38,495 nucleotides of DNA from an uncultured Spartobacteria bacterium (GTDB lineage Bacteria > Verrucomicrobiota > Verrucomicrobiia > Chthoniobacterales > Chthoniobacteraceae). The position numbers and the translations under genes are program-made. Under the pieces are notes generated by a model. The model ran no database searches. It was not told the DNA's origin and saw only the letters and a program-made list of their open reading frames with translations. Positions 17,630 to 38,495 of the stretch are shown here, one piece after another (position 1 is the stretch's first letter; every line of letters starts with the position of its first letter). The stretch spans positions 1 to 38,495 of the forward strand of contig CAIWVL010000108.1 of the NCBI GenBank assembly GCA_903916085.1. Direction: 5' to 3'.

Positions 17630-17843
17630 AGGTCGTAGTACGGCCTAAAAAGTCGAATCTCCTATCGACATCTTTCAATCATAGTGCGGTTCTCCCGACG
17701 CCCCCGCGACGAGGGCTAAGAGAATAGATGCCGGTGGTTCCAGTCGCGATGCTCCTATACCCACCGGCTCTTCCGACGCCCACGTCTTGCTTTACAGCTT
17801 GGGCCCTCTCGCAATTCGAACAATTTCGCGGTACAAACTACTA
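17630..17843 (-). repeat. Decayed copy of the dispersed inverted-repeat element
   Basis: Homologous to the element at 37799-38187. The palindrome CCGGTGG (17731-17737) and CCACCGG (17761-17767) spans 37 bases; its reverse complement agrees with 37881-37917 at 32 of 37 positions with no gaps. Flanks also match: AAAGTCG.ATCTCCT (around 17649) pairs with AAAGTCGGATCTCCT on the opposite strand of the intact copy. The right end, GAACAATTTCGCGGTAC...CTACTAG, corresponds to GAACAATTTCACCGAACAGCCTACTA. It carries one palindromic module where the intact copy has two, so it is a single-module or internally deleted form. The right end overlaps the stop codon of the minus-strand gene at 17841-18578. Confidence 0.8.
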
Positions 17844-37251: not shown

Positions 37252-37798
<547 letters not shown>

Positions 37799-38187
37799 TA
37801 GTAGGCTGTTCGGTGAAATTGTTCGGATTTAATAGAAGATCCAAGTCGGCAACCGAGCCGGAGGCTTCGGAAGAGATTAGCCGGTGGTGATAGGAGCGGA
37901 GCGACTGGAACCACCGGAATACCGTACCAAACGGATTGCGCTCCGGCAGGAGTGCGAGAAACATCCGCAACCCACGCGGCTCGAGTTCTATGTGAGGGGT
38001 TTCTCGCGCACCTCCGGCGCGCAGACCTTCGTTTGGACATCACCGGTGGTTCAGCTCGTTCCTCGCATCACCACCGGCTAATTTCTTAGCCCCCTCGCGG
38101 GGGCTTCGGAAGCGTCCCGCGATCATTAAGGATTCATTCCAAAAATGTCCGCAGGAGATCCGACTTTCTAGCCCGAACAGCCTACTA
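37799..38187. mobile_element. 389-bp MITE-like element with 15-bp terminal inverted repeats
   Basis: TAGTAGGCTGTTCGG (37799-37813) and its perfect reverse complement CCGAACAGCCTACTA (38173-38187) bound the element. Inside are two palindromic modules: CCGGTGGT/ACCACCGG at 37881-37917 and again at 38043-38077, plus the hairpin at 38088-38105. GCTTCGGAAG occurs beside both modules. The outermost TA at each end could be a TA target duplication. No transposase is encoded, so movement would need help in trans. A second, decayed copy lies at 17630-17843. Short open frames across it on both strands are by-products of the palindromes. Confidence 0.75.
38088..38105. repeat. Perfect 7-bp stem with TCGC loop inside the element
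   Basis: AGCCCCC, loop TCGC, GGGGGCT. The corresponding site in the decayed copy (17700-17716, GCCCCCGCGACGAGGGC) keeps the arms but is mutated, which indicates a conserved structural part of the repeat family. Confidence 0.8.
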
Positions 38188-38316
38188 GGGCAACGCCCTA
38201 GGATTACCGATCAGATGAAATCAGCCATGTTAAGGACGCCCCAAAACATGCCACGATTCAAGACGCCCCTTCAGGGCTGTGGATTTTTTCATCCAAAACC
38301 TAGGGCGTTGCCCTAG
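38185..38316. repeat. Pair of palindromic CTAGGGC..GCCCTAG repeats
   Basis: CTAGGGCAACGCCCTAG (38185-38201) and CTAGGGCGTTGCCCTAG (38300-38316) are each palindromic (7-bp arms, 3-base loop) and are reverse complements of each other, 98 bases apart. Between them ACGCCCC occurs twice. Similar sequence, from memory, is abundant in intergenic regions of planctomycetes and relatives. This lies directly against the right end of the 389-bp element, sharing CTA. Confidence 0.7.
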
Positions 38317-38495
38317 GCTGCCATGGTGCGCTCCGTTAGGGCTTCGGAAACGAGCTGATCCGACGTTGTTGCGCGTAATGCCTATCATTACCCAGTACGG
38401 CCACATACGACGAATCTGTTGTTTTTAAATCAGCGCCGCCCTGGGAGCGCCTCTGGCAGACTGATTGCAAACTCTGACGCCACCGATGATGCTGA
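38317..38495. other. Right end of window, no gene seen
   Basis: Contains another GGGCTTCGGAAA (about 38338) and otherwise no long open frame with credible coding character. The neighbouring gene lies beyond the window. Confidence 0.4.

Follow-up and report, generated by a model that had tools for sequence, protein, structure and literature searches.

MITEs and REPs are usually held to be separate classes of repeats with unrelated movers (DDE and HUH transposases, respectively). The Correia elements of Neisseria and the RUP elements of Streptococcus pneumoniae are classed as IS630-derived MITEs (PMC2817692). Cut-and-paste movement by an IS630 transposase is established for ISY100 (PMC2170065), and a preference of IS630 for the TA of CTAG is established in the work of Tenzen and Ohtsubo (1991), as cited in PMC2170065. 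In REPINs and BIMEs, two REPs are paired in inverted orientation and are mobilized by RAYTs (PMC3116915, PMC2817692). IS630 MITEs and REPs are each known in their own right, the latter also from the PVC superphylum (PMC2817692, PMC3733652), and the paper defining RAYTs mentions IS630 MITEs as background only. The Rfam family RF01687 (Acido-Lenti-1; Weinberg et al. 2010, PMC2864571) is listed as an sRNA gene.

We analyzed a 389-bp repeat at positions 37799-38187 of a 38,495-nt window, which is an entire contig (C108; CAIWVL010000108.1) of the 3.70-Mb draft genome (379 contigs) of an uncultured Spartobacteria bacterium. Judged by sequence comparison, the repeat is very probably an internally deleted IS630-family MITE in which the transposase gene was replaced by an inverted pair of RAYT-family REPs, and which would be moved in trans. 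It resembles the Correia and RUP elements in being gene free, in its IS630-type inverted ends, TA insertion, and foldback structure, and in its many copies, but it differs from them in its interior, an inverted RAYT-linked REP pair, and in the occurrence of three REP families within the same arms. Like REPINs and BIMEs, it contains two inverted REP units with a spacer, and the unit occurs next to Y1 transposase genes that belong to a single clade; in contrast to them, the pair lies within IS630 arms, and no cognate RAYT turned up in the organism's own draft genome.

Boundaries, copies, and insertion site

The element is bounded by perfect 15-bp inverted ends: TAGTAGGCTGTTCGG occupies 37799-37813, and 38173-38187 is its exact reverse complement; by our estimate, ~7e-5 such perfect 15-bp pairs would be expected by chance per 389 bases. 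Because the 15-bp end contains the duplicated target TA, the element proper (type A, plus strand; TIR GTAGGCTGTTCGG) spans 37801-38185 (385 bp), with boundaries common to its copies and with a TA on either side (37799-37800 and 38186-38187, both assigned by comparison with an empty site). Its interior contains two CCGGTGG/CCACCGG pairs (37881-37887/37911-37917 and 38043-38049/38071-38077) and a GC stem (AGCCCCCTCGCGGGGGCT, 38088-38105). The inverted ends, the palindromes, and the GC stem named in the preliminary description of this DNA are all present. It had also reported that no transposase is encoded inside, and the ORF list of the window agrees: no transposase ORF lies within the 389 bp, and the sole listed ORF of at least 80 aa that starts there is an 81-aa frame without gene-like signs.

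Sixty-three stretches of the 3.7-Mb genome match the element, and at least 8 of them, besides the element itself, cover more than half of its length. Near-complete copies are located on contigs C351, C290, C169, C223, and C189, and others are truncated. The copies are dispersed and have a common end point, with the end consensus TAGTAGGC[A/T]GT[A/T]CGG. Within the same genome, this end pattern was found at 65 places with ≤2 mismatches (versus 26 for a reversed control pattern) and at 32 places with ≤1 mismatch (versus none for the control); the exact left-end pattern had no match across the GTDB species contigs searched, a set from which records of this genome or its nearest relatives may be missing. 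The related copy previously noted 20 kb away exists, in degenerate form (17638-17843, minus strand; 72% identity over the left 122 bp, right end recognizable). The proposal of a nonautonomous mobile repeat family is therefore borne out, since further copies do exist in the genome and their boundaries coincide.

The preliminary description had missed that the element is nested in a second MITE (type B; 37723-38387, plus strand), whose ends are of the same class as those of the inner element. The left part of this outer MITE is 37723-37800, and the right part is 38188-38387, including a degenerate right TIR at 38373-38387. When joined, the two flanks align end to end with four uninterrupted type-B sister copies (L064, L070, L083, and L088), against which this one empty site was compared. 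The uninterrupted copies, e.g., L064, read GCGAGTTATGACAGCCTAGGGCAA, and the window flanks, minus the element and one TA, read GCGAGTTATGACAGCTTAGGGCAA, a 1-base difference. Since the joined flanks rebuild an uninterrupted type-B MITE, the element was inserted at the TA of a CTAG and the TA was duplicated, which supports the TA duplication suggested earlier for its ends; at a CTAG target, such a duplication is indistinguishable from one of 4 bp. The base preceding the MITE end was C in 33 of 47 cases, versus 28% C overall, in agreement with the CTAG preference known for IS630. An insertion at CTAG leaves CTAG on both borders, which allows a further copy to insert directly next to an earlier one: four end pairs are exactly 13 bp apart with a common TA, and similar joints occur at C290 and in contig C71 of a congener (G007).

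CTAG is scarce in the window as a whole (37 occurrences versus 145 expected from base composition and 42 from a second-order model), and given this rarity, CTAG-bearing repeats may be favored landing sites. As read from its translation, the gene at 37252-37590 (minus strand) encodes a P-II type nitrogen regulatory protein; its start is ~130 bp away from the outer MITE, and the MITE could influence its upstream region.

Arms and interior of the element

The left arm (37801-37853, plus strand) was traced to the 5' end of an IS630 element through IS630 remnant ends in the same genome, with which the left-arm consensus agrees at 28/33 (C2), 27/33 (C112), and 24/33 (C83) positions. At C83, and more weakly at C2, this left end continues into the decayed 5' part of an IS630 gene. 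The outer part of the right arm (38113-38185, plus strand) resembles an IS630 3' end, as seen when the right-arm consensus is compared with the IS630 end in G007:C71 (27/31 positions identical). The matches of both arms are close but not exact. At one end of contig G007:C71 lies the 3' portion of an IS630 transposase gene, and the outer end of the IS630 sequence directly abuts a G007 MITE. A complete IS630 element of G007 (contig C18, CAMDSZ010000018.1; ends TAGTAGGCAGTAACG) has one frameshift and encodes a protein scoring 144.5 bits to NCBIfam transpos_IS630. It has the first 12 TIR bases (TAGTAGGCAGTA) and the CTAG target in common with the MITE; unlike the MITE, it is 1210 bp long and carries a transposase gene, and its inner TIR and subterminal sequence differ.

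The organism's own draft genome yielded no intact IS630 element with the exact MITE ends, only 5' remnants and a single 3' fragment whose ends are different; nor did it yield a member of the RAYT clade to which the inner REP is linked. Both absences are weak evidence because the draft is divided into 379 contigs and repeats break contigs. A DDE_3 fragment in C239 (L093), which has a MITE TIR beside it, was rejected as the partner, as it has a TIR of its own (GTATCTASTTGAA) and is inserted at a TA in a MITE left end. This 5'-truncated copy (positions 1246-1857) belongs to a second IS630 lineage with GTATCTASTTGAA ends, an intact congener copy of which (L096; G001:C100, ~710-1830) interrupts an ORF and duplicates TA. 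Another DDE_3 protein is encoded in contig C241 (L092) of the own genome.

Between the arms lie REP unit 1 (GATTAGCCGGTGGT..ACCACCGGA; 37875-37918, plus strand) and the inverted REP unit 2 (38043-38087, minus strand), recognized as its inverted repeat and from relatives. The GC stem described above (38088-38105, minus strand) is the small hairpin of unit 2, an arrangement that recurs in relatives. The pair is bordered by direct repeats, namely CGGAGGCTTCGGAAG at 37859-37873 (plus strand), which overlaps a small GCC-GGA-GGC hairpin, and CGGGGGCTTCGGAAG at 38098-38112 (plus strand), identified by repeat analysis of the element. The palindromes form a module of their own that is also found away from the MITE ends, a point absent from the preliminary description: the unit ATTAGCCGGTGGT...ACCACCGG was found without detectable arms in ~18 clusters of the own genome, as well as in relatives of eight genera.

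The inner REP unit was present at 5 of the 31 Y1_Tnp loci examined, always at most ~160 bp from the transposase match, and at one of them (L175) it flanks the match on both sides in inverted orientation. In a 20-member tree, the five REP-linked Y1 genes (L173-L176 and L182), each of a different genus, group as a single clade (moderate support, 84/81). In the alignment of the inner REP, the stem pairs in 98.4% of cells, with little variation and one pair changed on both sides. As the unit lies near Y1 genes of one clade and its stem pairs, the interior is taken to be a RAYT-linked REP pair; the CCGGTGG/CCACCGG palindromes are best read as an inverted, REPIN-like pair of such REPs and not as IS630 sequence. 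The conserved tag is TTAG, unlike the GTAG or CGTC tags of published REPs (PMC3733652), and we therefore file the unit as RAYT-linked and REP-like, outside the GTAG/CGTC superfamilies. Two Y1 genes of the own genome (L043 and L044) were rejected as partners of this REP, since they group elsewhere in the tree, in an IS200-like branch, and lack a neighboring REP. Both partners initially suggested for the element, a RAYT and an IS630-like transposase, are thus involved, but in separate layers: IS630 accounts for the arms, and the RAYT family accounts for the palindromes.

Other REP families in IS630-type arms

The outer MITE carries an Acido-Lenti-1-like REP unit at 38299-38343 (plus strand), which scores 26.8 bits to RF01687, below the gathering score of 37; its sister copies score 37.3 to 44.1 bits. 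Apart from this unit, RF01687 matches lie inside the IS630 MITEs of L064, L070, L075, and L088, and 17 of the 21 matches in the own genome are ≤300 bp from an IS630-type end (versus 0.22 expected). RF01687 also matches 7 of the 20 Y1 loci scanned (L168, L170, L172, L180, L181, L183, and L192). Among the seven is the whole of a second RAYT clade (5 members; support 89/96, with one internal fork still open). In arbitrarily chosen control sequence of these genomes, 44.5 kb in total, RF01687 had no match. In contrast to its listing as an sRNA, the family here is REP-like and occurs in inverted pairs in MITEs and beside RAYT genes. Judging by these sequence contexts, RF01687 appears to be a family of REPs and not of sRNA genes.

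MITEs of the congener G007 have related arms and a third palindrome, which also adjoins Y1 genes in both G007 and G001 but is absent from the controls. This third MITE class, with the palindrome CTGGGAGCGCG, is represented by L116 (G007:C27, 1501-1847) and ~13 more places in G007, often at contig ends, and its units form arrays beside the Y1 gene in L178. With three REP families in such arms, at least three acquisitions of RAYT-type repeats by IS630 arms have occurred in this genus.

Two MITE copies (L031 and L042) have no REP pair, and L031 is joined at the 15-bp repeat by which the pair is bordered elsewhere. A further copy, L024 (G000:C338, 840-1253), is chimeric: its left arm and spacer are of type A, whereas the REP pair and right arm that come next are of type B. 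The copies without the pair, together with this mixed one, indicate that the MITE interior is exchanged or lost. We tentatively entertain the possibility, on balance somewhat doubtful, that IS630 MITEs of this genus are general carriers of RAYT-type REP pairs of unrelated families, which would be taken up repeatedly into the same arms, probably at the common small hairpin and 15-bp repeat, and that REPs that have lost their own RAYT are thereby still spread by a DDE transposase. A corollary, if this were true, is that the Rfam family Acido-Lenti-1 is a REP family and not an RNA gene.

Proposed mechanism, rival explanations, and implications

The features seen in the sequence are the common ends, the empty site with its TA duplication, the CTAG preference, the match of both arms to IS630, and REPs linked to one RAYT clade. 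The element would have originated from an IS630-family (bacterial Tc1/mariner) element of which both ends were kept as arms while the transposase gene was lost. An IS630 transposase acting in trans would recognize GTAGGCWGTWCGG and excise the element, and cut-and-paste reinsertion at the TA of a CTAG would duplicate that TA. The REP pair would be a passenger from a Y1 (HUH) transposase system, thought to work on single-stranded DNA hairpins, and may have entered by RAYT insertion or by exchange at the small hairpins and 15-bp repeats.

The REP pair could instead be the moving part, with a RAYT (Y1) transposase spreading the element through it and the IS630-like ends as bystanders; the linkage of the REP unit to RAYTs and the own-genome clusters in which REP units occur with arms undetectable speak for this. 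The 389-bp insertion, however, is bounded by the IS630 TIR and a TA duplication and not by the REP, some MITEs have the arms without a REP pair (L031 and L042), different REPs occupy the same arms, and the own draft genome yielded no cognate RAYT. This explanation is thus very improbable, and for the present copy it is already largely refuted by the empty site. A partner with a 4-bp (CTAG) duplication, of the kind known from the IS5 group, would leave a target that reads alike under both schemes, but the arms match IS630 ends adjoining IS630 transposase genes, and the IS630 relatives themselves end in TA, mostly in a CTAG setting, leaving hardly any probability for such a partner.

It is also highly unlikely that the repeat is a functional structured RNA family or terminator-like element spread by duplication. 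The fold of the 389-bp element is very stable (z = -13.6 as RNA and -11.6 as DNA; 0 of 100 shuffles as stable in either case), the type-B modules match an Rfam family listed as an sRNA, and pairing in the REP stems is maintained, one pair having changed at both of its positions. Yet the inverted repeats account for the fold, its long stem being formed by the REP pair; the covarying pair is a single one, no Rfam family matches the inner element, and the repeat has sharp transposon ends with a TA duplication.

Each layer of this structure is known, and the combination, as well as RF01687 as a REP, looks new: no description of REP pairs inside IS630 arms or of Acido-Lenti-1 as a REP was found in the literature searched (most subscription papers were outside its scope). 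One repeat unites a MITE and a REP, and three REP families are found in the same IS630 arms. The Rfam "sRNA" family Acido-Lenti-1 is suggested to be worth re-examination as mobile DNA. Carriage by IS630 could provide a concrete route for REPs to outlast their own transposase, and it offers a testable explanation for REP copy numbers that may not track the presence of RAYTs.
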